This document shows, in pieces, positions 1,658 through 35,891 of a stretch of 36,114 nucleotides of DNA. Made by a program: the position numbers and the translations under genes. Origin of the DNA: a virus; IMG/VR virus record IMGVR_UViG_3300024346_000234, positions 1 to 36,114 of that record; one strand, given 5' to 3'. The notes under the pieces are model-generated. The model made no database searches. It was not told the origin of the DNA and worked only from the letters and a program-made list of their open reading frames with translations. Every line of letters begins with the position of its first letter. Position 1 is the first letter of the stretch.

Positions 1658-3541
1658 ATGGCAAAGAAAAAACCAGCACCGAAATCAACCCCTAGAACTC
1701 CAAGGTCGAAAAAGTCGATTACGGAGTCTATTTCGTATGATACTGGAAGTTACCAAACTGGATGGGGGCCGTTCTGGAACGATCCAAGCGAATATGGTGC
1801 GTTTCAATTTCCTAATGCGGGGATGGGTGGTTGGGTCAATCCCGCTCAATTAGCGGTTAGAGACAATTACCTGTCAGGTGAGCAGCTTCCGATCTATCTG
1901 TCATGGTGGCAGCTTAAAAGCATTAGAGATAGAGCTAGATTCGTATTTGCTACCAATGAGTTTGCTCATGGGTTAGTTCAATGCTTTCAATCATTTGTTG
2001 TTGGGTCTTCGGGATTTAAATGGCGGGTTGCTTCAATCGATCTAAAGAACCCAGTTCCAGAGGATCTATTGAAGAGATGTCAGGCATCACTAGACATTTT
2101 TCGTGAATACAACAGTATGGTGGATGTTGAGAATGAAATTGTGTACAGACTCCATGTTGATGGAGAGGTATTCATTAGAAAGTTCCCACAAGCCAATGGA
2201 ATGCTCGTAATTCGCTTTATCGAGCCAGAATTGGTCAGAGGTTACGCAACGGACATTGGTTCGCCAAAAGACTCATTTGGTATCATTTGCGAAGAAGACG
2301 ATATTAACTCCGTTTTAGGTTATCAAGTCATTCTAAAGCCTAGTGTATCTAGAGAACCTACATTCATCCCTGCGGATGAGATCATACACATCAAGATTGG
2401 CACTAATTCTAACGCAAAGCGTGGATTGACTACATTCTACCCTGTGTTCCAGAATTTGACCAATTGCGAGGATATTTTAGCTTCTACAGTCACGATGGCG
2501 AAAGCCAGGGCAAAGGTTGCGATGATCAGGAAGGTAAACAATGTTGCCCCTGATTCAATGGCATCCCTTGTTGACTCACAGATTGATGCTACGCTCGGTG
2601 GCAGCAATAATATGGGTGCAACCGAAAACATTGGGCTAGAGAGATTCGGCTATGGATCAATCATCACAGCACCAGCGAACATCGACTACGAGTTCCCTGG
2701 GGCAAATGTTGACGCTGCTGGACTTATCCAAGTTTTGCAAGCCAACTTGCGATCACTTGCAACACGATTTGGGATCAGCGAAACCCTCATGTCAGGTGAT
2801 GCTAGCAACAACAACTACAGTTCAGCACTCATTGCAGAAGCTCCAGCACGAAGAACCTTTGAGCGATGGCAAGGGATTGTTGGAAGATCCTTGGCCGAAT
2901 GTCGATTCGAGCCAAACAAGTCTTTAGCTTGGTCACAGATCCACCTCGCATCCGAACACGGAATCATTCCAAAAGAGATTCTTAAGAACATCAAGATCAC
3001 TTCTGAAGCATATTCTCTTCAATCAAGAGAGCATCAGAAGGAAGCTGAGATGAACAATGTGTACCATTCGATGGGTGTGAAGTCGATTCAAACGATTCGC
3101 TCCGAATTAGGCCTTGATAACGATACAGAAGCATCAAACTTTATCAAACCAATTGTTGACGAGAAGAAGGGTGCAACGGAAATTGATCCGATGAATCCCT
3201 CATCAAGGATTGAGTCTGGAAGTGCTACTCAAGGCATTGGTGGTGGCGAACAAGTTCAAGACTCCGCTCTCAATGGGGCCCAGATCGCTAATCTTGTCGA
3301 TATTATTCATCGATGTACTATTGGTGAAATTCCAATGGAAAGTGGCAAGGCAATTGCGAGAGCATCCTTCCCTGCGATCACACCTGAGATTATCGATCTC
3401 ATGTTCCGTGATGTAGTGGTTAAGATTCCCGAACCTGTTCAACCTGTGTCAAGTTTTTCAGCAGAAAAACCTGATGGAAATGAACCACCACCAAACCTTC
3501 CCGCAGCAAAAGCACCAAAAACATCGACTGTAACAGGATAA
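1658..3541 (+). CDS. Portal protein, lambda gpB-like
   Basis: A 627-residue protein that would form the dodecameric ring at the capsid vertex through which DNA is pumped. The N-terminal 25 residues are Lys/Pro/Ser-rich. The core then follows the lambda-type portal family (PF05136): a FVFATNEFAHGLVQ helix, the YRLHVDGEVFIRKF stretch, EPELVRG, DEIIHIKIGTNS and the clip/stem helix around NCEDILASTVTMAKA. Next comes a SETLMSGDASNNNYSSALIAE segment, which resembles the conserved N-x-SSA-x-x-AE region of portals. The C-terminal 90 residues are Pro/Ser-rich. It precedes protease and capsid genes, the expected order. Upstream Shine-Dalgarno pairing is weak (AGG about ten bases before ATG). Confidence 0.9.
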   Translation: MAKKKPAPKSTPRTPRSKKSITESISYDTGSYQTGWGPFWNDPSEYGAFQFPNAGMGGWVNPAQLAVRDNYLSGEQLPIYLSWWQLKSIRDRARFVFATNEFAHGLVQCFQSFVVGSSGFKWRVASIDLKNPVPEDLLKRCQASLDIFREYNSMVDVENEIVYRLHVDGEVFIRKFPQANGMLVIRFIEPELVRGYATDIGSPKDSFGIICEEDDINSVLGYQVILKPSVSREPTFIPADEIIHIKIGTNSNAKRGLTTFYPVFQNLTNCEDILASTVTMAKARAKVAMIRKVNNVAPDSMASLVDSQIDATLGGSNNMGATENIGLERFGYGSIITAPANIDYEFPGANVDAAGLIQVLQANLRSLATRFGISETLMSGDASNNNYSSALIAEAPARRTFERWQGIVGRSLAECRFEPNKSLAWSQIHLASEHGIIPKEILKNIKITSEAYSLQSREHQKEAEMNNVYHSMGVKSIQTIRSELGLDNDTEASNFIKPIVDEKKGATEIDPMNPSSRIESGSATQGIGGGEQVQDSALNGAQIANLVDIIHRCTIGEIPMESGKAIARASFPAITPEIIDLMFRDVVVKIPEPVQPVSSFSAEKPDGNEPPPNLPAAKAPKTSTVTG

Positions 3542-12788: not shown

Positions 12789-13741
12789 TGGCAACAGATG
12801 TAGCCAAAACAGTCATAATTGAGGAACTTAAGGTTGGTGCTAGTATCACCACCGATCAGTTAATTCCGGCAATTACAGACCCTGTTTCATTAGTTACAAT
12901 TGATGGCCAAGGCAACGCTATTGTCTTTAGATATGCTGTCAATACCGACTTGACTGTTTCTATTGGCCTTACAATGCCAACAGATGTTTTCTTTGTAGAC
13001 AACACCCCTGTTAATGGTGCTGGAACTTTAGAAGTATCTTTTATCAATCAAAGTCCATCCCTTGTTTTTGCTACCCCAATAAGCACTATTGGTGTTCCTA
13101 CATTTAGGTCTTTGGTTGATACTGACATACCTGATCTGTCAGGAAACTATTTAACCTTGGTTACTCACGATGGTACTTTGTCTGGGAATGGAACAGTAGC
13201 TTCACCATTATCTGTTTCTGCTGGTGTTGGAACTGTAACTAGCATTACTTTGGCTTCATCAGACTTTTCAATATCAAATCCTACTATTACATCTTCTGGA
13301 ACAATAACTACTAATCTTAAAAATACTGGTGTAACTCCAGGGGTTTATGGAACTGCAACTTTAATACCTGTGGTGACAGTTGATAGCAAGGGGAGAATTA
13401 CATCTTTATCTACTGTTACTGTTTCTGGTGGTGGTGGTTCTGGAACAGTTACTTCGGTTGGGATAACATCTGTATCCAATGAAATAACTGTCAACAATTC
13501 GCCTGTTACAAGCTCTGGAGATATTGATCTTGCACTTTCTGCCACAGGGGTTGTTGCTGGAACTTATGGCGATTCATCAAATACTGTTGAATTGATTATT
13601 GATGCTGCTGGAAGAATAACTTCAGCAGTTAATACACCTATTCAATCGTTGCCTTCTGGTGGGCTAACAAGCCAAGTTGTAACATATAATAATCAAGATG
13701 AACTAGTTTGGGTATACTCTGATGGGGGTACATGGCAATGA
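12788..13741 (+). CDS. Short tail fibre protein with beta repeats
   Basis: A 317-residue protein. After a 125-residue N-terminal part it consists of fibre-type repeats: GTVTSITLASSDFSISNPTI, then TGVTPGVYGTATLIPVVTVD, then SGTVTSVGITSVSNEITVNN and a second TGVVAGTYG-type unit ending in DAAGRITSA. Such repeats form trimeric beta-helical shafts. The C-terminus (QDELVWVYSDGGTWQ) resembles a small tip. It shares its repeat style with the next gene and overlaps it by four bases (ATGA), so both probably build the same fibre or are recombination partners. Confidence 0.75.
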   Translation: MATDVAKTVIIEELKVGASITTDQLIPAITDPVSLVTIDGQGNAIVFRYAVNTDLTVSIGLTMPTDVFFVDNTPVNGAGTLEVSFINQSPSLVFATPISTIGVPTFRSLVDTDIPDLSGNYLTLVTHDGTLSGNGTVASPLSVSAGVGTVTSITLASSDFSISNPTITSSGTITTNLKNTGVTPGVYGTATLIPVVTVDSKGRITSLSTVTVSGGGGSGTVTSVGITSVSNEITVNNSPVTSSGDIDLALSATGVVAGTYGDSSNTVELIIDAAGRITSAVNTPIQSLPSGGLTSQVVTYNNQDELVWVYSDGGTWQ

Positions 13742-16700
13742 GTTTTTGCAATATAGGTGAACTTACATATTATGGATCGGTTGATTCTGTTCCATCAAAC
13801 CAAATTGGGTTTGGTTTTATTACTGGTTCTCAAGACAATAAATATGTTTATGTTTTTAACTCAAATTCTTCTTGCATATCTGTTTTTGAAAGAAACATTT
13901 CAAATGGAAGTTTAACTTTTATTGAAAATAGTACACTTCTTGGAAACGAATCAAAAATATATATATCGCAGGATTCAAAAAATGTTTACGCAGTTCTTGG
14001 ACAGACTACTTTTCCAATTATTATTTTTAATAGAGATTTAATAACTGGAGAGTTAACCCAATCTGGTTCCTATTCTCCAGGTACTAGTGATTATTATTTT
14101 CAAGATATTGTAATATCAAAAGATGATAAAAATATTTATTTGGTATCTGAAGGAGTAAACGGAGGGATATATACTTTAAACAGAAATTTAACCAATGGGC
14201 AATTAAGTCTTAACGATTTTATTTCAAACAATCAGCTTGACGGTGATCTTGCTGATGATGTTAAAAAAATTACAATTTCTAATGACGGCAAAAATGTTTA
14301 TACAGCTAACAGAAACAGAAGCACAGTTTCAATTTATAGTAGGAATTTAATTACTGGTAATTTAACATTACTAAGTGTTTTTGATTATGGTGGTCTATTA
14401 AATTATCCTACTGATATTTGTGTTTCTAATGATGATAAAAATGTTTTTGTAGCACCAAGCGGTTCTAGTGTAATACTTAACTTTGGTCGAGATGTTTCTA
14501 ATGGTTCTTTTAATAGTATTCAAGCAATTAGTGTAACAGGATCTCAACCTTGGTATCTATCTTTGTCTTCCGATGATAAAACTTTATATGTTTCTTATAA
14601 CTATAATAGTTCACAAATTACTGCTTACGATAGAAATTTAATAAATGGAAATTTAACTTTTTTGCAAGATGCTAACATAGATCCTATAACAAACACTCGT
14701 AGCCGTGGGGTTTTTTCTTCATTAGACTCTAAAAATGTTTATTTTTCACCTTCTGTAATTCCTTATGGATCTTTATCTTTATCTATATTTTCAAGATGCA
14801 CTGGTTCTGAAAATTCAACTGCATTAATGATTGATGTTCAACCTTATGGAGTTGTATCTGGTGATCCATTTACAACCCAACCAATAATTAAAATTGTCGA
14901 TTCAAATGGCGATTTAGTTCCAACTGCAACTAATGATGTTGAGGCAGCAATAACGGTTGTTAATGGTTCTGGTTCATTAACAGGAACAACAACAGTAACT
15001 GCTGTAGATGGTTATGCAACTTTTACTGATTTAGTTTTTACTGGTGCTGGTTCATTTTATTTGACATTCACCTCAACAGGCTTAACTGAAATAGATTCAG
15101 ATGAAATTGCAACTTTAACACCTACAGAGTTAGTTGTATATGTTCAACCTATCGCTGGATTGTCAGGCGAATTGTTATTTACCCAACCAACAATTACAAT
15201 TGCAAATTGGCTTGGTGATTTAGTTCCAGATGCAACAGATGTTGTTGATGTTTCTTTAGTAGATGTAACTGGTTCATCAGTTTTAACAGGAACATTAAAC
15301 TCAACTGCTTCTGGTGGATATGCAGCATTTACAGATTTAATTGCTACTGGTTACGGATCGTTTTATTTAACCTTTACTTCTGGAACTTTAACATCTGTAA
15401 ATTCTGATACATTGTTTTTTACTCCTGACCCTGGTAATCCTAATCCCCCAATTCCAGTTAAACCAAAAAGATCATACACACCTTTATCTGTTCCAACTTC
15501 TGGTGATATGGAAACTAATGAATTTGCAATAAATGTTGCAGATAAAAAAGGTTATGTAAGGGATTCAAACGGTATCATTCATTTAGTTTTTGATGGTAAT
15601 GCTAGTGGATCTGGTTCAGTTACATCTGTTGGATTGTCTTCAACTAATTCAACTTTAACAATTTCTGATTCTCCTGTTACAACTTCTGGAACAATCAAAA
15701 TTGATTTGCCAGAAACTGGTGTTTCTGCAAAAGCTTATACTAATGCAGATATTACAATTGATGTTTATGGAAGAATTACTGCTGCTTCAGATGGTGCTGG
15801 CGTTACATCTATTATTGCTGGAACTGGTGTATCAGTAGATACTGCAACAGGTGATGTTACAGTAACCAACTCTTTGCCCGATCAAACCGTTTCATTAACC
15901 AATGGAACAGCAATTTCTGTAACAGGTACTTATCCAGACTTTACTATTACTAATGATTCTCCAGACCAAATTGTTACATTGACTGACGGAACAGCAATTT
16001 CTGTAACAGGAACATATCCTGATTTTACTATTACTAACTCTTTACCTGATCAAACAGTTACCTTAACTGAAGGTACAGATATAACCATTACTGGAACATA
16101 TCCAGATTTTACCATTGGTTATTCTGGAGTTGCTGGTGGTGTAACTTCGATCATAGCTGGAACTGGAATTAGTGTAGATGTTGCAACAGGCGATGTTACT
16201 GTAACAAATTCTGCACCCGATCAAATTGTTTCAATCACCTCTGGAACTGGTATTAATACTACTGGAATTTATCCTGACTTTACGATTGATTCAACCATAA
16301 CTCAATACACGGATTCAGATGCAAGATTGGCATTGTCCGCTGGTACTGGCATAAGTTACGATAATGCAACAGGAATTATTACAAATTCAGAACCAGATCA
16401 AACGGTTTCATTAACTGACGGAACAGGTATTTCAGTAACTGGAACTTATCCTAGTTTTACTATTGCAACAACCATTACTCAATATACAGATTCAGATGCA
16501 AGATTATCTTTATCTGCTGGAACTGGAATTTCTTACGATAATGCAACAGGGATAATAACTAATTCTGCTCCTGATCAGACTGTTTCTTTAACAGATGGAA
16601 CTGATATTTCAGTTACTGGAACATATCCTAATTTTACCATTTCATACACAGGGAGTAGTGGTTCTGGAACAGTAACATCTGTTGATATGTCTGTACCTGT

Positions 16701-17877
16701 TGGTTTATTAGTAAGTGGTAATCCAATTACAACAACTGGAACATTATCAGTAACCTTTGATACTGGCTATTCAATTCCAACAACAACTTCCCAGACAAAT
16801 TGGGATACCGCTTATTCAAATTATTTGCAATGGGATGGTGGTTCAACAAGCTTAGTTGCAGCAACTGGTAGAACTTCCTTGGGTGCTTCTACTGTAGGCG
16901 AAAACCTGTTTACCCTTACTAATCCATCAGCAATAACATTCCCTAGATTTAATGCTGATAATACAGTAACTGCTTTAAATGATGCTGATTTTAGAACTGC
17001 AATTGGTGCTGGAACATCATCAACAACTGGAACAGTTACATCGATATCAACAACCTCCCCAATAACAGGTGGAACAATAACTGGAACTGGCACAATCGGA
17101 ATAAATGCAGCAAGTGCAAATACTGCTTCTTATGTGGTTCAAAGAGATGCTTCTGGAAACTTTTCTGCTGGAACTATTACCGCTTCATTGACTGGAACAG
17201 CATCAACTGCAACTAATCTTGCAGGTGGCGGTGCTGGTCAAGTTCCTTATCAATCTGCATCTGGTACAACCGCAATGCTTTCAGCGGGAACATCAGGTCA
17301 AGTTTTAACTTCTTCTGGTACATCTGCACCAACTTGGTCAAATGTAATGCCTTCTGGAACTATAATGCAGTATGCTGGTGCAACTGCTCCTACAGGTTAT
17401 TTGATATGTGACGGATCTGCTGTATCTAGAACTACATATGCAACATTATTTGCAGTAACTAGTACAACTTATGGTGTAGGTAATGGATCTACTACATTTA
17501 ATTTACCAAATTTACAAAGTAGGCTTCCAATTGGTGCTGGAACTGGTTCTGGTTTAACCCTTAGAACTAGGGGAACAACTTACGGAACTGAAACATTTAC
17601 TTTAGCTTCTGGAAATATACCACAATTAACAAGTGGGAATATGAGTGCAAATGCTAGTCATAGTCACACGCAATTAAGGCCTTCATATGTTTATGTTGGT
17701 TCGGGTGGTGGTGCTGGTAATGCTGCTGGAACTATAATCCAGACCAGCGATAATGTTAGTGGCCCTCAGATTCAATCTCAAAGTACCGAGCATACTCATT
17801 CTGTTGGCAATATCACACCTTCAGCAGTTACCTTTTTACCTCCATCTTTGGCCCTTAACTACATCATTAAAACTTAG
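13738..17877 (+). CDS. Large tail fibre: propeller, Ig-like, fibre repeats, collar tip
   Basis: About 1,379 residues. ATG 13738 overlaps the preceding stop as ATGA and has GGGGG nine bases upstream; an ATG six bases earlier is possible. Residues 1-350 hold seven repeats of the form S-x-D-x-K-N-V-Y ... R-N-x-x-x-G-x-L, a seven-bladed lactonase/YVTN-like propeller. About 365-460 and 468-565 are two Ig-like repeats (DLVPTATNDVEAAIT and DLVPDATDVVDVSL). About 600-1200 are fibre repeats with DQTVSLTDGT and ITQYTDSDARL units. About 1204-1260 is a phage tail collar domain (PF07484): PSGTIMQYAGATAPTGYLIC, then FNLPNLQSRLPIG. The tip has HSHT and HTHS. The likely role is host binding; the propeller could bind a surface glycan. 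Confidence 0.85.
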   Translation: MSFCNIGELTYYGSVDSVPSNQIGFGFITGSQDNKYVYVFNSNSSCISVFERNISNGSLTFIENSTLLGNESKIYISQDSKNVYAVLGQTTFPIIIFNRDLITGELTQSGSYSPGTSDYYFQDIVISKDDKNIYLVSEGVNGGIYTLNRNLTNGQLSLNDFISNNQLDGDLADDVKKITISNDGKNVYTANRNRSTVSIYSRNLITGNLTLLSVFDYGGLLNYPTDICVSNDDKNVFVAPSGSSVILNFGRDVSNGSFNSIQAISVTGSQPWYLSLSSDDKTLYVSYNYNSSQITAYDRNLINGNLTFLQDANIDPITNTRSRGVFSSLDSKNVYFSPSVIPYGSLSLSIFSRCTGSENSTALMIDVQPYGVVSGDPFTTQPIIKIVDSNGDLVPTATNDVEAAITVVNGSGSLTGTTTVTAVDGYATFTDLVFTGAGSFYLTFTSTGLTEIDSDEIATLTPTELVVYVQPIAGLSGELLFTQPTITIANWLGDLVPDATDVVDVSLVDVTGSSVLTGTLNSTASGGYAAFTDLIATGYGSFYLTFTSGTLTSVNSDTLFFTPDPGNPNPPIPVKPKRSYTPLSVPTSGDMETNEFAINVADKKGYVRDSNGIIHLVFDGNASGSGSVTSVGLSSTNSTLTISDSPVTTSGTIKIDLPETGVSAKAYTNADITIDVYGRITAASDGAGVTSIIAGTGVSVDTATGDVTVTNSLPDQTVSLTNGTAISVTGTYPDFTITNDSPDQIVTLTDGTAISVTGTYPDFTITNSLPDQTVTLTEGTDITITGTYPDFTIGYSGVAGGVTSIIAGTGISVDVATGDVTVTNSAPDQIVSITSGTGINTTGIYPDFTIDSTITQYTDSDARLALSAGTGISYDNATGIITNSEPDQTVSLTDGTGISVTGTYPSFTIATTITQYTDSDARLSLSAGTGISYDNATGIITNSAPDQTVSLTDGTDISVTGTYPNFTISYTGSSGSGTVTSVDMSVPVGLLVSGNPITTTGTLSVTFDTGYSIPTTTSQTNWDTAYSNYLQWDGGSTSLVAATGRTSLGASTVGENLFTLTNPSAITFPRFNADNTVTALNDADFRTAIGAGTSSTTGTVTSISTTSPITGGTITGTGTIGINAASANTASYVVQRDASGNFSAGTITASLTGTASTATNLAGGGAGQVPYQSASGTTAMLSAGTSGQVLTSSGTSAPTWSNVMPSGTIMQYAGATAPTGYLICDGSAVSRTTYATLFAVTSTTYGVGNGSTTFNLPNLQSRLPIGAGTGSGLTLRTRGTTYGTETFTLASGNIPQLTSGNMSANASHSHTQLRPSYVYVGSGGGAGNAAGTIIQTSDNVSGPQIQSQSTEHTHSVGNITPSAVTFLPPSLALNYIIKT

Positions 17878-26912: not shown

Positions 26913-27367
26913 TAGATTCAGACAGTTTTTACGAGATGCTGGAGAATATTCAGCGTGGAATTGATTTTAAATTAGCCATGAAGGCCTTTGGGATTTCTAA
27001 AAGGGATCTTGAACCTTGGCATAAAAAAGAAATGGTTAAGGCCAAAGCACAGGCAACCATTGCTATGCAACAGGTTATCCATGAACATGGTTCTGAGGAT
27101 TGGCGAGCCATGCAATGGATAATTGAACGCAATAATAAGGAACGAGATGATGAGCAAGAACTCCAAAAACTCCTCAACAAACAACTTGCAAAAGAGATGG
27201 CAAAAGGCCTTATCGAGTCCAGCGTTGCAGGGGAAACTTTCGGAAATCCAAGAGATCAAGAGGGTGAATCGGGAGAATCAGAAGACTATAGTGATTCCGA
27301 AAGACCCAGGGGAGTATTGCGAATACCTAGGGATAACATTGACTCCCCAGCAGATGGAAATATTTGA
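26909..27367 (+). CDS. Probable terminase small subunit
   Basis: A 152-residue protein, ATGA-coupled to the upstream gene. Residues about 15-75 fit the helix-turn-helix build of small terminases (KLAMKAFGISKRDLEPWHKK, then IAMQQVIHEHGSEDWRAMQW and IIERN). The subunit would recognise phage DNA and regulate the large subunit. The C-terminal 70 residues are charged and low in complexity (a GNPRDQEGESGESEDYSDSE stretch) and lie in DNA that also encodes the start of the large subunit in another frame. The overlap of 221 bases is unusually long. Confidence 0.65.
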   Translation: MIDSDSFYEMLENIQRGIDFKLAMKAFGISKRDLEPWHKKEMVKAKAQATIAMQQVIHEHGSEDWRAMQWIIERNNKERDDEQELQKLLNKQLAKEMAKGLIESSVAGETFGNPRDQEGESGESEDYSDSERPRGVLRIPRDNIDSPADGNI

Positions 27368-28703
27368 TTCCGTTGCTAATGGTGCAAGAAAAGTTCTAGT
27401 TCGATCCGCACACAATCAAGGCAAAACTTTTTTGTGTGCTGTTATTGCTTCATGGTTTCACGATCACTTTACTCCATCAGAAGTTTTGATATCAGCACCT
27501 GTTGCTCAGCAGATCAAAGATGGTGTATTCAAAGAATTACGCAGGGTTAGACCAAGAGATCCAAATTGGATGCCCAAGGCTAATCGTCTTGAAAAGAACC
27601 CCTCGCATTACATACAAGGTTTAACCGCTCAGAAGGCTGATGCTTTCCAAGGACGGCACTCCGCTGGTGGTTTGTGCATTCTGTTTGACGAAGCATCTGG
27701 TATTGAACCAACCTTCTGGGAACGAGCAGAATCGATGCTTTCAGCAAGCAAAGAGAATTGTTTATGGTTCTGCATTTTCAATCCATATGATGCATCATCA
27801 CCCGCCTATTTTGCTGAGAATTCACCTGATTGGAAAGTGTTCCACCTGTCTGCTTTAGATCATCCTAATGTGGCTTTTAAAGCTGATCTTGTGCCAGGGG
27901 CAATCAACTATGAGTATGTAGAGAACCGCATCAAAAACGAATGCAGAACCGCTAGAGAAGGTGAAGAATCTGAACCAGGGTTCTTTACCTTCAATGATCG
28001 AAACTACATGGTTGAAGACCCGCTGTTTGATATTCAAGTTCTTGGAAGATACCCCAGTAAAGCGATCAACTCGGTATGGGGTGCTTTGCCCCTCAAACAA
28101 ATCCTTGACCCAATTCCCCTTAACAAGGATTGGGTGGTTCAGATTGGTGCTGACCCTGCAAGGTTTGGTGACGATAGATCCTGTTTAGTGGTCAGGCATG
28201 GATGTTGCATCATAGATGCAAAGGAGTATCGTGGTTTGTCTACAAAAGAATTCTCGGAAAAGATTAAAGAGTATTGCCAGAAGTACGAAACTCCAAGGCA
28301 GTCTCAATTCAAAATCCCTGTGCTTATTGATGAGGGTGGTGTTGGTGGCGGTGTAGTCGATAACAAGGGTGACTATATGTTTTACGGCATTAATTCGTCT
28401 GGTGAAGCACCAAGGTGGCGAGAGTTTCCAAACATGAGATCCGCACTCTGGTTTGAAGCAGCAGAACTTGCGATGGAAGGCAAAGTTTCAATCGGACATC
28501 TTCCGCTGCATATGCGTGAAAGGATGATGGAAGAGTTACGCACACCAGTATACATTGTAGATACAAACGGCAGAAGAGTGGTCGAGTCTAAGGACATGAT
28601 GAAGCGTAGACTCAAGCACTCTCCTGACCTTGCAGATGCTTTTAACTTAGCTCTGATGTCGATCCCTCGGATTGGGATTGAGAAGGTGATTGGTCATTTA
28701 TAA
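27147..28703 (+). CDS. terL: Terminase large subunit
   Basis: A 518-residue packaging motor with ATPase and nuclease halves. ATG 27147 is chosen because AAGGA (27137-27141) is well placed; the frame is open from 27123. An adapter-type start (GEYCEYLGITLTPQQMEIFD) leads to Walker A at residues 86-94 (RSAHNQGKT) and Walker B at 176-182 (LCILFDE). The C-terminal RNase H-like nuclease has acidic residues at Asp336 (GADPARFGDDRS), Asp395 (VLIDEGGVGGG) and Asp497 (SPDLADAF). All key residues are present. It overlaps the small-subunit gene by 221 bases and the convergent primase gene by 62 bases. Confidence 0.9.
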   Translation: MMSKNSKNSSTNNLQKRWQKALSSPALQGKLSEIQEIKRVNRENQKTIVIPKDPGEYCEYLGITLTPQQMEIFDSVANGARKVLVRSAHNQGKTFLCAVIASWFHDHFTPSEVLISAPVAQQIKDGVFKELRRVRPRDPNWMPKANRLEKNPSHYIQGLTAQKADAFQGRHSAGGLCILFDEASGIEPTFWERAESMLSASKENCLWFCIFNPYDASSPAYFAENSPDWKVFHLSALDHPNVAFKADLVPGAINYEYVENRIKNECRTAREGEESEPGFFTFNDRNYMVEDPLFDIQVLGRYPSKAINSVWGALPLKQILDPIPLNKDWVVQIGADPARFGDDRSCLVVRHGCCIIDAKEYRGLSTKEFSEKIKEYCQKYETPRQSQFKIPVLIDEGGVGGGVVDNKGDYMFYGINSSGEAPRWREFPNMRSALWFEAAELAMEGKVSIGHLPLHMRERMMEELRTPVYIVDTNGRRVVESKDMMKRRLKHSPDLADAFNLALMSIPRIGIEKVIGHL

Positions 28704-31119
28704 CGATGTACATTGATCCAGCACCATTCGCATCTCTGCTTTTCCTGATTGAAATTTCACCGCAATCTTGAAGGTATCGGATTGCATCATCAACGCTTTG
28801 CCCGCTGTGTACGATCTTCCTGAGATGCCTTTTCGCATCAATCATCTTTACACCATATATATCTGGTTCAATTTCGTTTAGTGAATCCTTGATCATGTTT
28901 AATAGTTTGTCTGTAATTTCACCAAACTTTGTATCGCTTACCATAACTGTATTTGCGGTCTGTCTTTTATTAACTTCACGAACAAATTTAAATCCAGAGG
29001 TAACTCCAGCTAGCGAAATTGTGTCAGCGTTTATGTCCTGACTTAATTCCCACAGGCAAGCTATTTTCAGAGCTAACTCAGGAAGTCTAGCACATGAAGA
29101 AGCCTTTTCTTCTTCGCTGTTCTTCTGGTACTTGGAATACAGATCATCGTTTTCCCACACCTGAGTTTGAAAGAATTCTAACGCATCTTCATCAAGTAAA
29201 AGAATTTTTGAATCCCTTTCAATCTGATTTAGTGGAGCATTTCCAAGTGCATCAAGTTTAGTATCTGCCATGAATTCCTTGATCACTCCAGGCACAAGAT
29301 TTTCATTCATGGCAATCAATCGTGCAGCAACTTCAACTAGGTATTCTGGAATTGGTTCTGATACTGACATACCCCGAAGATTCATTCTGCCTCGAATTGC
29401 AGATTGTAAAATCAGCAACCTATTGTAAAAACCTGACCGAAGCATCTTAGGTGATAGTGCCTTAAAATATTCTTCTGGGGTTGATGAAGTCATAATGGAA
29501 AGGAATGGGTAGCGAATAAAGTTTTCTGAGTCCGCATCACCCGCTTTAGCTCGCCTCTTAATATAGTTTGATGTGAACAGTTCTAGCATTGTTCCCATTA
29601 CATCGTTGAACCTTGTGTCACCTGACTTTGCTTTCTCAAGATCAAATGCACCTTCATCAGCCATCAAGAATTTCGGGCCTTGAATCACCTTCTCTTCAAG
29701 CCCTTCACGGCTACCAACTTTCGTCATCAACAAGCTTGCGTTATCAATTTCCATACAGATTCTAGCGTTTAATTTTCGCGGGAAATCTTTGCCCGAAGCT
29801 GTCAAACCAAGCACAACAATGTATAAATTAAGCTTTAGTTCATTCGGCCCCATGATGGATCTTCCCACTAGGGCAGAAAACATCCCTAGTGCAGATGCAG
29901 CAGCAATTCGCTTTTCTGGGTATAGTGCGTTTCTCATGCAGTAGTCAATGTAAGTGTCGATCCACCCAGGAAATGAAATCGCATCGTCAGGCACAATGTC
30001 TACAGTTCTGACCTGTTTAACCTTACCTGACTTTGTTGTTTCAAGGAAATCCCATCTAGTTTCGTTCACAGGCTCATCTTCAATTTTGTCTATTGAATAC
30101 TTAGCAAATACCTGTGCGTAAAATGTTTTCCACTCCCTGCTCCCTGGTTGCCACCCTCGGCTCATACAATAAACATAATCTTTGGTTAATGGAATGTTTG
30201 GACTCAATCGCCAATCTAATGGACTGAAATTCCAATAGCGATCCATGCCACCATTTTTGCACCCTGCAATAGCGTTAGGTTCTCTGCCTGATGAATCAGG
30301 ATGCCACACCATGAAGTAATCATGCCTGACCTCAACTACTCGGTAAGAATCTGGAAGAATTTCGGGCCAAGAAGTTTCTGCTCGCCATTGATCCAACGCA
30401 GTCTTTTTGCCTATCTCTTTATACTGATAAGGTTCCTTGTTTAGCTCGATGAATCTCTTTGCTGCTTTTTGATCATACGACTGAGCAAATGACATGAGGA
30501 ATTCATGTTCATCCGCAGTAAGCATTGGAATGGTTGCAACATCTCCATGAATCATTTTATATGGCTTAACCAATCCATCAATCTTTGAGACTGCCTGAGA
30601 ATAGAAACCAACTACATATCCACCCGCCCCCCTTGTTTCAATCAATGGTGGAGCAATCTTTTTGGTCGATCCTTTGGCTTTAGCTTCGGCTAACCACTTC
30701 TTACCGTTATCAGTAGACATTACCGCTAATTCACGGCACTTTGATTTACCTAGTGGCAAATAGTAGAAAATGTGCAATCCTTCAGATGGGGTGGTTTCTA
30801 CGCACCCACAGAGTTTGTCGTGTAGTTCTTTGCTGGTTGCTTCTAGGTCAGGCAAGAAGTCAATCGCCACTTTAGGGCAATCAATATCAAGGCATTCTAA
30901 GTCCTTTTCCTGACCCACAACTGGGCCACAGTTGATTGCTATCCCTGCTACATTTGCGTGACTAAAATCTATCTCAATTTCAAGGTCTGATAGTGGGTTT
31001 GATCTAAGCTCCACTATACGGTTGGTTCTCTTAATTACTGGGGTTTTATCGACCTTAGTAGAAAAAACTGATAACCCATGTCCACGAACACGCAAAGCCT
31101 GTTTCTTTATTTCGTCCAA
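28642..31119 (-). CDS. Primase-polymerase fused to ATPase/helicase
   Basis: An 825-residue replication protein. It begins at TTG 31119 with AGG six bases upstream; no ATG or GTG fits better. Residues about 50-185 are a primase-polymerase (AEP/PrimPol, PF09250-like) domain: LECLDIDCP with Asp78 and Asp80, TPSEGLHIFYY with His117, and ETRGAGGYVV. A linker with WQPGSREW follows. Residues about 385-700 are a DUF3987-like P-loop ATPase: Walker A at 438-445 (GLTASGKD) and Walker B at 484-489 (FLMADE). It would prime and help unwind DNA. The C-terminus is Ser-rich. Its last 62 bases overlap the 3' end of the large terminase gene on the other strand. Confidence 0.8.
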   Translation of the reverse strand: MDEIKKQALRVRGHGLSVFSTKVDKTPVIKRTNRIVELRSNPLSDLEIEIDFSHANVAGIAINCGPVVGQEKDLECLDIDCPKVAIDFLPDLEATSKELHDKLCGCVETTPSEGLHIFYYLPLGKSKCRELAVMSTDNGKKWLAEAKAKGSTKKIAPPLIETRGAGGYVVGFYSQAVSKIDGLVKPYKMIHGDVATIPMLTADEHEFLMSFAQSYDQKAAKRFIELNKEPYQYKEIGKKTALDQWRAETSWPEILPDSYRVVEVRHDYFMVWHPDSSGREPNAIAGCKNGGMDRYWNFSPLDWRLSPNIPLTKDYVYCMSRGWQPGSREWKTFYAQVFAKYSIDKIEDEPVNETRWDFLETTKSGKVKQVRTVDIVPDDAISFPGWIDTYIDYCMRNALYPEKRIAAASALGMFSALVGRSIMGPNELKLNLYIVVLGLTASGKDFPRKLNARICMEIDNASLLMTKVGSREGLEEKVIQGPKFLMADEGAFDLEKAKSGDTRFNDVMGTMLELFTSNYIKRRAKAGDADSENFIRYPFLSIMTSSTPEEYFKALSPKMLRSGFYNRLLILQSAIRGRMNLRGMSVSEPIPEYLVEVAARLIAMNENLVPGVIKEFMADTKLDALGNAPLNQIERDSKILLLDEDALEFFQTQVWENDDLYSKYQKNSEEEKASSCARLPELALKIACLWELSQDINADTISLAGVTSGFKFVREVNKRQTANTVMVSDTKFGEITDKLLNMIKDSLNEIEPDIYGVKMIDAKRHLRKIVHSGQSVDDAIRYLQDCGEISIRKSRDANGAGSMYIVINDQSPSQSQSEGSTSELS

Positions 31120-31204: not shown

Positions 31205-33685
31205 TCACCCTTTCGCCATTCCCCCGCTTATTACTCTAGTACTTTGAAATTGGTAACTATCGATGTGATAGTACCCCTTTTCATTTATGTGTGCCTTTAT
31301 GGCAATTGGTTTCGGGATCGTATCTAACCACTCTTGGATTTGCAAGCTTTCTTTATTCATATTCCAATGCTTGTCTGGTAAACCTTTTGCACCAACAGAC
31401 TTAAGCCATTTCCAAACTATAAATTCTAATCCATGCTTTAATGAGTGATAGCATCTGATTAGCTTACCTTCAAGCGTTTCGTGTGTTTCGAGTATGCAAG
31501 GATCTGATGCTGGAGTTTTACGATAGATCGTGTATCCGGTAGCAACTATTTCATATTGCTTTGGTTGCCTTCCCGCAAGAATTTCACCATTGGTTTGGCT
31601 TGCAGAAAGTTTCTCTGGAAACAAAGATTCTTCTTCTTTTGGTTTGAAATAACCGCATGAAGGGCAAATGATATTGCCAACCCTGTGTATGAGATTGCAT
31701 GAAGGGCAACGCTTTACTTTAGCTGCTGGAAGTTCAATGCCTTGGGCATCAACTACGATCTGATCGATGCAACCATGCCTGAGAGCGTTGTCACCAAAAT
31801 CAAGTATCAAACAGTTCTCTTTATCTGGAGCAAGGCGAAATCCCCGCCCAACCATCTGATACCACAACCCCTTCGACATGGTTGGTCGCATCACCACAAC
31901 GCAATCAATTCCAGGGGCATCAAAACCAGTTGTCAAGACAGCTACATTTACTAACCATTTAAAACTGTTAGCCCGAAATCCATTAATCAAAAAGTCTCTA
32001 ATCGTTGAATGCGTTTCGCCTGTTATCATGTTTGCCGATTGGCCCTGCTTCTTTAATTCATTAAGAATCATTTCAGCGTGTTTAATCGATGAGGCAAACA
32101 CCAATACAGATTTTCTTGAAGATGCTTTTACGATTGCCTCTTTAACGCTGGATTGAACAAGATCAGCGTTTTCAAGAATCGCATCAAGATCCTTAGAAAA
32201 GTATTCACCCGCTCTGATTCTGACATTCTTTAGATCAGGAGAATCACTTGTACCCATTGTTACTAACGGAGAAAGAAATCCTTCGTCAATCAAATCTCGC
32301 ACTCCAATTGCGTAGCAGCAATTATCAAAAGTCTTTTCTTTATGACCAAAGATGATTCCGCTCTGAAGTCGATATGGGGTTGCAGTTAAGCCAACAACTT
32401 TTACTCTAGAGTTTGAAATCTTTGCCTGAGACAGAAACTTTCGGTACATGGTTTCTTTGTTCTGGCTAATGAGATGGCAATTATGTACTGCTACCCCATC
32501 AGCAAAGTAAGAAGGATGTCCGCTGACTTGAATGTTGAATACAAGGACAGGGCTTTTTCGTTTTTTACACGATACACCGACCACCCTAATCCCGCCAAAA
32601 ACTTCATTTTCTTCTGATCCTTTTCTTTCCTCTCTAGTGAACCGTGGCTTCCCCCATCCAGTTCGATTGCAATCATTTTCTCTTTGTTCCCAATGTCCAC
32701 CTTGTAACAATTTGGATACATTCCGTTTAGATGCCCCGCATGAGTGATTATCGCAAGCTCCGCTTTCCATCCATCCCCTAGTGCGTGTAACAATGCTAGT
32801 TGAGCCAAGGGAAGCAATTGCCCGTTCCCGCCTCTTTGTATAGGTTTGTGTTTCATCTCTTTCAGTTTGTCGCTTATTTTTTTCCTTGCTGCTTTGTTCA
32901 ACGATGTTGGGGAAAATTTCTTCGCACACGCAACTGAGCAAAATTTCTGCTTTTTCCAAAGGGATTCTTGTAGCGTGGATTTTATCTTCCCATTTTCCAG
33001 ATACTTCACCCAAGGACAGAACACTTTCCCACAACATACGCATATCTTGGATTCCAAAAAGACCCGATCCGTTCTCCAACTCCTTGGCTGCACACCATCC
33101 TCTTTCGGTAAAGAACCTGTGGTTCCCTGTGCATTCAATTTTTTTTCCATTACTAAGCTCCACTATATATGTCTCTGGTGCTGGTTTACAAGATACGGCT
33201 TCAACCGTTCCAACACCGCATTGATTGAATACTAAGTCACCGCACCTCACCTTGTCAATAGGGATTTCTCCTTTTGGAGTAGATATCATTGTTCCAGCCA
33301 CAAAGCATTCGTCAATCATAATGAAATCCAGATAACCAAAGTCAGCACCCTTTCTGTACACACTTTGAATCCCTGCAATCGTCAAAGGTTTTACTTCTCT
33401 GCGTTTTAATGCAGCAGAATAAACCCCGATTGATTCAACAGGTAAGCCAGTAGTAGTTGCATAGTGTGTACAAGTTTTGTTGGATTGCTCAAGCAATTCT
33501 TTTACATGAGACAGAATCATTCCCCTGCAATTTGGGTTCGCCTCGAATGACCTTCTAATTATCTCGGCCATGACTCTAGTTTTCCCGCCACCAGTTGGAA
33601 TGACGATTACTGATGATTGCCCAGGGCGATCATGCTGAAATTCAAATAGTGAATTCACAGCATCTTGTTGATACTTGCGTAGCAT
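31205..33685 (-). CDS. SF2 helicase precursor interrupted by an intein
   Basis: An 826-residue precursor, 550 after removal of residues 127-402. The start has GGGAG before ATG and overlaps the upstream stop (TAATG). Helicase motifs: Walker A at 29-36 (IPTGGGKT), motif II DECH split as Asp125-Glu126 and Cys403-His404, motif III at 434-437 (TATP), motif V-VI region TTGFDAPG and QMVGRGFR (610-617). A Cys4 zinc ribbon (Cys660, 663, 674, 677) and a C-terminal region follow. The type is UvsW/RAD25-like phage SF2 helicase, probably acting in replication or recombination with the ATPase and ssDNA-binding proteins of this operon. Activity should need splicing, since the intein splits the ATP-hydrolysis motif. 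Confidence 0.85.
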   Translation of the reverse strand: MLRKYQQDAVNSLFEFQHDRPGQSSVIVIPTGGGKTRVMAEIIRRSFEANPNCRGMILSHVKELLEQSNKTCTHYATTTGLPVESIGVYSAALKRREVKPLTIAGIQSVYRKGADFGYLDFIMIDECFVAGTMISTPKGEIPIDKVRCGDLVFNQCGVGTVEAVSCKPAPETYIVELSNGKKIECTGNHRFFTERGWCAAKELENGSGLFGIQDMRMLWESVLSLGEVSGKWEDKIHATRIPLEKAEILLSCVCEEIFPNIVEQSSKEKNKRQTERDETQTYTKRRERAIASLGSTSIVTRTRGWMESGACDNHSCGASKRNVSKLLQGGHWEQRENDCNRTGWGKPRFTREERKGSEENEVFGGIRVVGVSCKKRKSPVLVFNIQVSGHPSYFADGVAVHNCHLISQNKETMYRKFLSQAKISNSRVKVVGLTATPYRLQSGIIFGHKEKTFDNCCYAIGVRDLIDEGFLSPLVTMGTSDSPDLKNVRIRAGEYFSKDLDAILENADLVQSSVKEAIVKASSRKSVLVFASSIKHAEMILNELKKQGQSANMITGETHSTIRDFLINGFRANSFKWLVNVAVLTTGFDAPGIDCVVVMRPTMSKGLWYQMVGRGFRLAPDKENCLILDFGDNALRHGCIDQIVVDAQGIELPAAKVKRCPSCNLIHRVGNIICPSCGYFKPKEEESLFPEKLSASQTNGEILAGRQPKQYEIVATGYTIYRKTPASDPCILETHETLEGKLIRCYHSLKHGLEFIVWKWLKSVGAKGLPDKHWNMNKESLQIQEWLDTIPKPIAIKAHINEKGYYHIDSYQFQSTRVISGGMAKG
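32480..33307 (-). mobile_element. Intein in the helicase DECH box
   Basis: Residues 127-402 of the precursor, 276 long. Block A starts with Cys127 (CFVAGTMISTPKGEIPID). Block B has the T-x-x-H motif, Thr186 to His189 (CTGNHRFF). Block F/G runs VFNIQVSGHPSYFADGVAVH and ends His401-Asn402, with Cys403 as the first downstream residue. All splicing residues are present. The middle (about residues 205-370) has no LAGLIDADG or HNH domain in this frame; it is Lys/Arg/Glu/Ser/Thr-rich and looks like a linker. That stretch encodes a nuclease in the +1 frame. Confidence 0.9.
32491..33150 (-). CDS. Nested EDxHD/Vsr-like homing endonuclease in the +1 frame of the intein
   Basis: A 219-residue protein, entirely inside the intein and one frame off. 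GGAG lies seven bases before ATG 33150, and an in-frame TAG sits just upstream. The ribosome site resembles that of the operon's 34062 gene (GGAGCTTA). Residues 35-80 are a zinc-finger-like segment: Cys37, Cys40 (CVCC), Cys71 and Cys75 (FCSVACAKKF). Residues 108-200 are a Vsr-like nuclease fold: Asp152 in YKVDIG, Glu163, Asp165 and His169 in IAIELDGGSH, and Asp178, then LGWSVYRVKNEKAL. The key residues of the EDxHD homing endonuclease group are recognisable. It should cut the empty helicase gene and spread the intein. The gene stops 11 bases before the intein end. Confidence 0.8.
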   Translation of the reverse strand: MEKKLNAQGTTGSLPKEDGVQPRSWRTDRVFLESKICVCCGKVFCPWVKYLENGKIKSTLQESLWKKQKFCSVACAKKFSPTSLNKAARKKISDKLKEMKHKPIQRGGNGQLLPLAQLALLHALGDGWKAELAIITHAGHLNGMYPNCYKVDIGNKEKMIAIELDGGSHGSLERKEKDQKKMKFLAGLGWSVYRVKNEKALSLYSTFKSADILLTLLMG

Positions 33686-34062
33686 TATGATCTCCCTAAC
33701 TTTGAATACCCAAGAATCAAATTCGTTGCACCATAGTTATCTGTGGTTTCGCCTATTTCGACTAGAAAAGGTTTGTCCACAAGTTCTTCGGGTTTCATCA
33801 CAGTAGTAATACCGCATGAAGAAGCCAGCCTTGCTAGCTTTCGCCTTGAGTCCGCTCTGAACTTTGTGTCAGTCGAAAAGATGTGAAAATTTGCATCTAA
33901 TGCTCTGCCCTGCTGTGACCCTTGCAATATCTGCATATCGCAAGCAAGGTATTTATTTCCCGCTCTAGATGTCTTAATCTCCGCTCGCATGATGCGAGCA
34001 GAGTAAGTTCCAGCGGGAATCGGTTTGGTTTCTTCGGGATCGAATAAAGGTTCATCACTCAT
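33685..34062 (-). CDS. DUF669-like ssDNA-binding protein, copy 2
   Basis: A 125-residue protein with GGAG eight bases before ATG, three bases after the upstream gene and one base overlapping the helicase start. The pattern PIPAGTYSARIMRAEIKTSR, then KYLACDMQILQGSQQGR and FRADSRRKLARLASSCGI, fits phage DUF669-type ssDNA-binding proteins. It shares its MSDE start and layout with the gene at 34753-35148. It probably coats single strands for annealing and replication. Confidence 0.65.
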   Translation of the reverse strand: MSDEPLFDPEETKPIPAGTYSARIMRAEIKTSRAGNKYLACDMQILQGSQQGRALDANFHIFSTDTKFRADSRRKLARLASSCGITTVMKPEELVDKPFLVEIGETTDNYGATNLILGYSKLGRS

Positions 34063-34752: not shown

Positions 34753-35148
34753 TTAGACAGCTTTCAAGAACTTTTCTACATTTTCGTAAGTAGAGCCGTT
34801 CTTTTCGCTGTTTTTTATTTTAACCACACAGGCCTGACCAATGATGTTTGTCAGGGTCATGCGATCTAATCCAAGAGCAGCATCAAGACTCTGCCTTAAC
34901 TTTGCATGAATACTGCAAACCTGTGGGTTAGGGTGACCGTCTTTGATATACAAGGTAAAGGTCTTATATCGACCCTGCATATCATGTGGAGCATCTATTT
35001 GACAACCAAGAGACAACCATTTTTTGTCATCCTTAGTACGGACTTCCGCTTTGGTAATGATTACTGGATATTCCCCTGGAGGAAGAATGTCAGCCTTTAA
35101 AAGCTCTTTCGCTTCATCTTGGCCAAAGATTTCAAATTCATCACTCAT
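34753..35148 (-). CDS. DUF669-like ssDNA-binding protein, copy 1
   Basis: A 131-residue protein just after the ATPase gene, whose last codons supply an AAGG-type ribosome site. The pattern ILPPGEYPVIITKAEVRTKD, then WLSLGCQIDAPHDMQGRYKT and LRQSLDAALGLDRMTL, matches the same family as the 33685 gene. DUF669 proteins commonly pair with Sak4-like ATPases as ssDNA-binding partners. Directly adjacent to one here, it is likely the cognate partner. Confidence 0.7.
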   Translation of the reverse strand: MSDEFEIFGQDEAKELLKADILPPGEYPVIITKAEVRTKDDKKWLSLGCQIDAPHDMQGRYKTFTLYIKDGHPNPQVCSIHAKLRQSLDAALGLDRMTLTNIIGQACVVKIKNSEKNGSTYENVEKFLKAV

Positions 35149-35150
35149 AA

Positions 35151-35891
35151 CTACTTACCTTTCTTAGAAAAAATTTCATTAACCTTAGTCACAAAATTGT
35201 CAACAGTCATCGTTCCAGTTACCCCTGGGATTCTGGATTTCGCAGTCAGTCCACCCCTTGGTGTTACCGTAATCGTTCTGCGTACTTCGTTGCCGTCTTT
35301 GCGAATGATAGGCTTGCCATCATCACCAACCATCAAATCAATCTCAACGAACCCAATTAAGTCTGCCCAACTGGTCACCCATTCGGACATTGCTTTGTCA
35401 GCACGAACACCGAAAGAAGCATATTCACCTCTTGTTGGATCATTTACACTTTTTACTGTCGAATGACACAAAAAGTAAACCCCAAGATCCTTCTTGGCAT
35501 TTAGCGAGTTGATAAGCAGAGACATCTGCGTTACAGACTCCACAAGGCCTTTACCATACCCGCCACACGCTAGCACGATTGATGATGCTCCAGATGTTTG
35601 GCAGATGTGCTGGTGAAGCAATCTTTCCAAAGCGGTTAGAGAATCGATGACAATATTTTCGTAGGCAAATTCTGCGGTTGTTACGATCTCTTTGATCGTA
35701 GCCACAAATTCTGCCCATGTTTTTATTGACACGCAATCAATGTCTATGCCTGAGATACCACCCTCGACATCAAGAAACAAAGCTTTTGTAAGCTTCGATC
35801 CCATTGTTGATTTACCCGAACCTTCAGCACCAAAGACAACTGCCTTTGGCTTATTAGTCAAACCAAAACCAACAGGCTTCCCAATTTTCAT
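35151..35891 (-). CDS. Sak4-like RecA-type ATPase
   Basis: A 246-residue P-loop ATPase with GGAAGGGG before ATG. Walker A is at residues about 21-29 (GAEGSGKST), Walker B about 78-86 (NIVIDSLTA), and a GVYFLCHS sensor strand follows near 135. The size and order fit the AAA_24/Sak4 group of phage single-strand annealing or RecA-like ATPases. It would load on single strands together with the DUF669-like partner next door. The C-terminus ends in lysines. Likely used for recombination-dependent replication. Confidence 0.8.
   Translation of the reverse strand: MKIGKPVGFGLTNKPKAVVFGAEGSGKSTMGSKLTKALFLDVEGGISGIDIDCVSIKTWAEFVATIKEIVTTAEFAYENIVIDSLTALERLLHQHICQTSGASSIVLACGGYGKGLVESVTQMSLLINSLNAKKDLGVYFLCHSTVKSVNDPTRGEYASFGVRADKAMSEWVTSWADLIGFVEIDLMVGDDGKPIIRKDGNEVRRTITVTPRGGLTAKSRIPGVTGTMTVDNFVTKVNEIFSKKGK

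Follow-up and report, generated by a model that had tools for sequence, protein, structure and literature searches.

Can an intein keep its homing endonuclease as a separate gene in another reading frame? The question is raised by the IMG/VR virus record IMGVR_UViG_3300024346_000234, analysed over positions 1 to 36,114 (a stretch of 36,114 nucleotides (nt), hereafter the window), in which a superfamily 2 (SF2) helicase gene is interrupted by an intein and the intein contains a second open reading frame (ORF). The 826-amino-acid (aa) ORF of this RadD-like helicase (31205..33685) entirely encloses a 219-codon ORF (32491..33150) that starts with ATG in the +1 frame; all features of the element lie on the minus strand. 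A preliminary description, made from the sequence alone, had read the inner frame as a homing endonuclease gene wholly inside the intein, on the same strand and in the +1 frame. The sequence confirms this placement, and the observation is real and was understated: the out-of-frame nuclease-in-intein layout is a widespread family and not a single case. Judged from sequence comparison, the best explanation, and a very probable one, is that the element belongs to a family of homing inteins whose endonuclease lies out of frame and is translated on its own.

The intein and its nested nuclease

The interrupted gene was recognised by Pfam (ResIII, 6e-15; Helicase_C, 6e-13) and by further profile matches to RadD/YejH (6e-84) and the DNA helicase family phrog_16 (4e-80). 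Its intein comprises 276 aa (32480..33307, helicase residues 127-402) and is inserted at DE|C, between the DE and CH of helicase motif II, with an N-extein (33308-33685) and a C-extein (31205-32479) on either side. It carries C1, the block B TxxH, the terminal HN and a Cys as the first C-extein residue, and is thus intact in all splicing residues, as the preliminary description had it. C1 and the penultimate and terminal HN are unchanged across 46 aligned inteins; among the dereplicated contiguous loci described below, C1 is present in 162/162 and HN|C or HN|S in 159/162. Matches were detected to intein_Nterm (4.7e-5), intein_Cterm (1.7e-4) and Pfam Intein_splicing (7e-8, below its cut-off). 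In the AlphaFold2 (AF2) model, residues 1-90 and ~240-276 form an ordered Hint domain (predicted local distance difference test, pLDDT, 92-98), and the linker is disordered, with a pLDDT of ~32-48 along most of its length. Foldseek matched the model to known intein structures down to E 1e-7, gp41-1 among them, and gp41-1 took second place in the intein profile search. By sequence motifs and predicted fold this is a Hint-domain intein, and it is likely to be self-splicing. The profile search found neither a nuclease family match in the intein-frame linker nor an endonuclease domain sharing the intein's frame, in line with the earlier proposal that a linker takes the place of an in-frame LAGLIDADG domain.

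The nested frame matches Pfam DUF559 (E=6e-7, 29.7 bits, above the gathering threshold of 20.6), which bears out the nuclease similarity claimed for it; a REase_MTES_1575 match (E=5e-6) falls under its own cut-off. Homologues were aligned to the window protein as 163 distinct loci, dereplicated, with split loci included, repeatedly fetched contigs counted once and the window itself (L005, on the other strand) removed (164 to 163). Neither a 735-kb phage record (L012) nor the chromosomal DUF559 matches (L115-L155) are borne by inteins; they served solely as outgroups. In the EDxHD/Vsr-like catalytic region (residues 145-205, 32536..32718), D152, H169 and D178 are kept in 163/163 loci, E163 in 161/163 and D165 in 159/163, and these are exactly the five residues named in the preliminary description; 6/163 loci have a substituted catalytic residue. 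The predicted zinc-finger region (32926..33042) is marked by four conserved cysteines, C37 and C40 (each in 160/163), C71 (156/163) and C75 (155/163). The AF2 model of the 219-aa protein has a mean pLDDT of 82. Searching PDB by profile retrieved 3hrl (8e-5) and 3r3p, the homing endonuclease I-Bth0305I (0.05), and a single-sequence search of it gave nothing useful. We assign the protein to the EDxHD type mainly by motif and profile, because the fold support from Foldseek, given below, is only moderate. An NCBIfam colicin_Z match (E 0.0018, 18 of 300 bits) was dismissed as noise.

A GGAG Shine-Dalgarno motif (33158-33161), overlying Val-Glu codons of the intein, lies 7 nt before the nuclease ATG, where it had first been noted. 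The nuclease stop falls 11 nt short of the intein end. The nuclease DNA had been said to span intein blocks B, F and G, which holds for B and F, while G is entered only at its start.

Recurrence of the layout and selection on the two frames

The same dual-frame pattern, proposed as something to look for in other phages, is found well beyond the window. Using tblastn with the nuclease against phage records, we detected matches lying within the helicase genes of phages of Vibrio, Pseudomonas and Corynebacterium, and the six phage loci fetched afterwards have the identical intein site and the nuclease in the +1 frame. Scans of viral contigs and bacterial genome contigs brought the number of contiguous nested loci to 260, of which 260/260 are in +1, as are 4/4 split loci and 7/7 loci at contig edges; a nuclease in frame 0 or +2 was found in none of these contiguous, split or contig-edge loci. 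The sources are cultured phages, IMG/VR contigs and bacterial contigs of many phyla (including Planctomycetota, Actinomycetota, Chloroflexota, Bacillota, Bacteroidota and Myxococcota, with prophages and other bacterial sequence taken together). In a search blind to the nuclease, made with the intein N-domain only, all inteins among the best 80 carry the nested nuclease. In the records examined, the annotation over the nuclease is just "helicase" or hypothetical protein.

The insertion site is DE|C in 156/162 contiguous loci, and the others lie mostly within or just after DEAH. At one contig edge (L246:2-1132), the C-terminal half of an intein with a +1 nuclease is encoded in a DNA polymerase III clamp-loader AAA+ protein (PF13177, 5e-15); the target therefore appears to be the P-loop Walker-B region and not helicases alone. 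Four of the helicases (L046, L068, L072 and L079) have Pfam LAGLIDADG_3 or Hom_end_hint matches that suggest a second intein elsewhere in the protein, beside the out-of-frame one.

A frameshift error in sequencing or assembly might have displaced an in-frame nuclease domain. We found no support for such an artefact: cultured phages and many assemblies made independently agree in phase, and the intein frame picks up again correctly into an intact C-terminal splicing half, so that this explanation is already refuted and its probability negligible.

Chance was assessed by synonymous re-coding of the intein. A +1 open run of at least 219 codons arose in 39/20,000 trials (~0.002 for the window locus alone), the mean run being 89 codons, and chance is ruled out because the layout recurs in 260 fetched loci.

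Differences by codon position across 74 pairs separate three parts of the intein. For block A, which precedes the nuclease, they are.293/.257/.553 at the three intein codon positions; the linker shows the same pattern in the nuclease frame (.285/.225/.532), and all three positions are low in the C-terminal overlap (.21/.227/.319). Ratios of nonsynonymous to synonymous substitution (dN/dS) were computed for close pairs, for each frame singly; over the linker they are ~0.1 for nuclease codons and mostly >1 for intein codons, with the reverse in block A. Selection at the codon level, as anticipated, thus acts on both frames, and the constrained frame switches inside one ORF, with the end blocks serving both. 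The Hint N-terminal splicing half (intein residues 1-95, 33023..33307), delimited by the AF2 model and the codon-position test, has the intein frame as its sole coding frame 5' of the nuclease start (33150). The low-confidence linker (residues 96-235, 32603..33022) codes mainly in the nuclease frame, judging by dN/dS, and is under purifying selection there. The C-terminal splicing half (blocks F and G, 32480..32602; pLDDT of its Hint strands ~95) is largely dual-coded, and substitution patterns point to constraint on both frames. No intein-frame stop was seen, against 7.2 per locus (range 1 to 19) expected if nuclease codons were drawn freely, a figure that follows in part from how an open intein is defined and is meant to convey scale.

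These patterns bear on the idea that the nuclease frame is a decaying relic, open only since the intein frame tolerates no stops. In its favour are one locus (L114, 2-7456) in which the intein is intact at 200 aa and an internal deletion has cut the nested nuclease down to an ORF of 101 codons, and the 6/163 loci with a substituted catalytic residue. It is already contradicted by the purifying selection in the nuclease frame and the near-invariant active site in most loci; moreover, an open intein frame does not hold the +1 frame open, as the mean run of 89 codons indicates. We consider a relic very improbable. The deletion and the six substitutions are ordinary decay in a homing cycle. Nuclease frames broken by stops inside an intact intein, which would have spoken against a functional gene, were not seen among the fetched relatives, though nuclease searches tend to miss badly broken copies.

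Probable translation and homing, and related states

The start of the nested frame recurs among the loci together with its Shine-Dalgarno. A +1 ATG near intein nt 157 (nt 148-168) is present in 93/162 loci, compared with 63 (standard deviation 4.7) expected by synonymous shuffling, and in a smaller set a Shine-Dalgarno of at least 4 bases is present in 45/78 loci, compared with 17 expected (z 8.6). A nuclease-frame stop lies at most 5 codons upstream of the ATG in 44/92 loci. The simplest reading is that the nuclease is translated by internal initiation at its own start. Alternatively, the +1 frame could be made only as a fusion to the N-terminal part of the intein, by programmed +1 ribosomal frameshifting, yielding a truncated helicase-intein-nuclease. 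The offset is +1 without exception, which speaks for such a mechanism, but common descent predicts a constant offset equally, and we read the constancy of the frame as descent. The conserved ATG and Shine-Dalgarno also argue against a fusion, as do the nuclease-frame stops close upstream of the ATG, and we regard it as quite unlikely.

Several observations weigh against an independently translated endonuclease of the EDxHD type. No ATG is found at the usual position in 38/116 loci of the start-site set, within which some loci appear to use a later ATG, or TTG with GAGGT, and several are without an evident Shine-Dalgarno. The dN/dS method handles overlapping frames singly. Foldseek of the nuclease model gave no match with E < 0.001: I-Bth0305I (3r3p) came at rank 2 with a probability of 0.98, but with E 0.02 and a template modelling (TM) score of 0.49 by target length, which amounts to moderate fold support.

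Signs of mobility come from phages with and without the intein. The DEVHH allele of phage phi674 is uninterrupted; in phi673 the intein separates DE from CHH precisely, and the +1 residue is C in place of V. Their exteins differ at 17 positions, 7 of them within the 78 nt right after the junction, and over the 386 nt beyond these they are identical. The genome paper on phi673 and phi674 reported the intein and remarked that phi674 lacks it; its passage on the intein does not mention a nuclease. Among Vibrio phages, the same site is empty in 141E35-1 (DECHH) and 142E35-1 (DEAHH), holds nuclease-free mini-inteins at DE|C in 268E42.1 and K458 (L232:301-2385 and L234:301-2382), and holds the full element in 1.088.O and 1.194.O. 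The clustered changes and the change of V or A to C are consistent with co-conversion.

In the homing reading, the long frame would give a helicase precursor from which the Hint-domain intein excises itself; between the Hint halves, the intein frame would run through as unstructured sequence. In a reading shifted by one base, that DNA would be a gene in its own right, equipped with a Shine-Dalgarno and a start codon, for a zinc-finger EDxHD/DUF559 nuclease. This nuclease probably cuts helicase alleles that lack the intein, at the Walker-B (DE|xH) region; with the intein-bearing copy as repair template, the intein would be inserted and the flanking codons co-converted, including that of the Cys+1 required for splicing. 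The nuclease might instead be translated and serve the phage or host (in restriction, anti-competitor cutting or gene regulation), with the intein as mere shelter. DUF559 relatives do stand alone in bacterial chromosomes, and some free-standing relatives adjoin helicases. The near-constant, DNA-conserved DE|C site, the precise empty alleles and the adjacent change cluster are, however, the signature of a homing element, and the free-standing relatives likewise adjoin the same kind of target gene; a role of this sort seems unlikely to us.

The preliminary description had also held that the overlap prevents intein and nuclease from being lost separately, which is contradicted by the Vibrio mini-inteins and by two further states. 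Split versions were detected in a Lacinutrix bin (Bacteroidota, L107:4310-6604) and in viral contigs (L236-L238; L236:3529-5751), where the N-intein ORF ends, the nuclease overlaps and the C-intein ORF resumes in the same frame; the linker frame of L107 is full of stops. Free-standing nucleases (L077:3929-5696, L240:1513-3373 and L281:3355-5626) lie directly upstream of, and slightly overlap, intein-less SF2 helicases. In a nuclease tree built by a quick method, the split versions fall inside the contiguous group (Shimodaira-Hasegawa-like approximate likelihood ratio test, SH-aLRT, 96 and 99), and a contiguous ancestor is therefore favoured. The three free-standing nucleases fall inside the intein-borne group, and the chromosomal DUF559 proteins group together outside nearly all intein-borne nucleases. 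Distances of the intein N-terminal part and of the nuclease are correlated (r 0.65; partial on extein 0.50; Mantel p 0.001), which is what co-inheritance predicts. It may be, and we hold this with about even confidence, that an old, widespread Walker-B intein lineage kept its endonuclease as an out-of-frame overlapping gene, and that split-intein fractured genes arise from it as stops build up in the unconstrained linker frame.

Elsewhere in the window, we identified a PrimPol-type primase (28642-31119), two single-stranded DNA-binding (SSB)-like proteins (33685-34062 and 34753-35148, one also matching DUF669), a Sak4-like annealing protein (35151-35891), the portal (1658-3541) and the large terminase (27123-28703). 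The window also encodes a 1381-aa protein with a Phage Tail Collar domain and beta-propeller (Lactonase) repeats (13732-17877, plus strand).

Meaning and comparison with known systems

To our knowledge, the intein homing endonucleases described so far are either in frame or located between split halves in fractured genes. The layout reported here would be a third arrangement, which is the rule in a large family overlooked by annotation. Two unrelated conserved domains share the same DNA, and the frame under selection switches inside one ORF. The family may show concretely how split inteins come about in nature. For protein engineering it could supply both continuous and split intein pairs, and its nucleases form a set with the helicase Walker-B motif as predicted target. 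The layout is directly testable, phi673 and phi674 being a cultured pair suited to a homing cross.

Conventional large inteins, with in-frame LAGLIDADG or HNH endonucleases, likewise have a Hint domain interrupted at the usual endonuclease position and form a homing element in a conserved nucleotide-binding motif. Their nuclease is in frame, whereas the window element has a separate out-of-frame gene of another nuclease family and keeps only a disordered linker in frame. In fractured genes, a free-standing EDxHD (Vsr-like) endonuclease lies between the halves of a split intein (Dassa et al. 2009, as cited in PMC12350094). The nuclease type is that of the window element, and the relatives L107 and L236-L238 share the split layout; the window intein, in contrast, is one continuous open frame that overlaps the nuclease almost throughout. 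The intein gp41-1, close to the window intein by profile, we take to be a split intein of the fractured-gene type.

I-Bth0305I, an EDxHD homing endonuclease whose structure (3r3p) was deposited as a mobile intron protein, shares the catalytic motif and, at moderate significance, the fold of the window nuclease; its carrier is a group I intron and not an intein. The chromosomal DUF559 proteins share the Pfam catalytic domain of the window nuclease, which scores above the gathering threshold, and differ in their tree position outside nearly all intein-borne nucleases.

The preliminary description knew of no described case of this layout. Searches of the literature on inteins and on endonucleases encoded out of frame or in overlap, which were incomplete in coverage and do not support a claim of priority, found no out-of-frame endonuclease in a true intein, so that this part stands, although the case is far from unique. 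The sole relevant precedent that these searches returned is the ShiLan element, an HNH encoded out of frame, without a splicing domain and with no detectable ribosome site (PMC11855218). In both cases an insertion leaves the host frame open and conceals a homing-type nuclease in another frame. The ShiLan insertion encodes an HNH, has no splicing domain and stays in the protein, whereas the window element combines a DUF559-type nuclease with a complete intein. A second insertion of the ShiLan type, in Pacc40, has a counterpart HNH upstream of a methylase in related phages (PMC11855218), and this upstream HNH parallels the free-standing nucleases L077, L240 and L281 next to their intein-less helicases.
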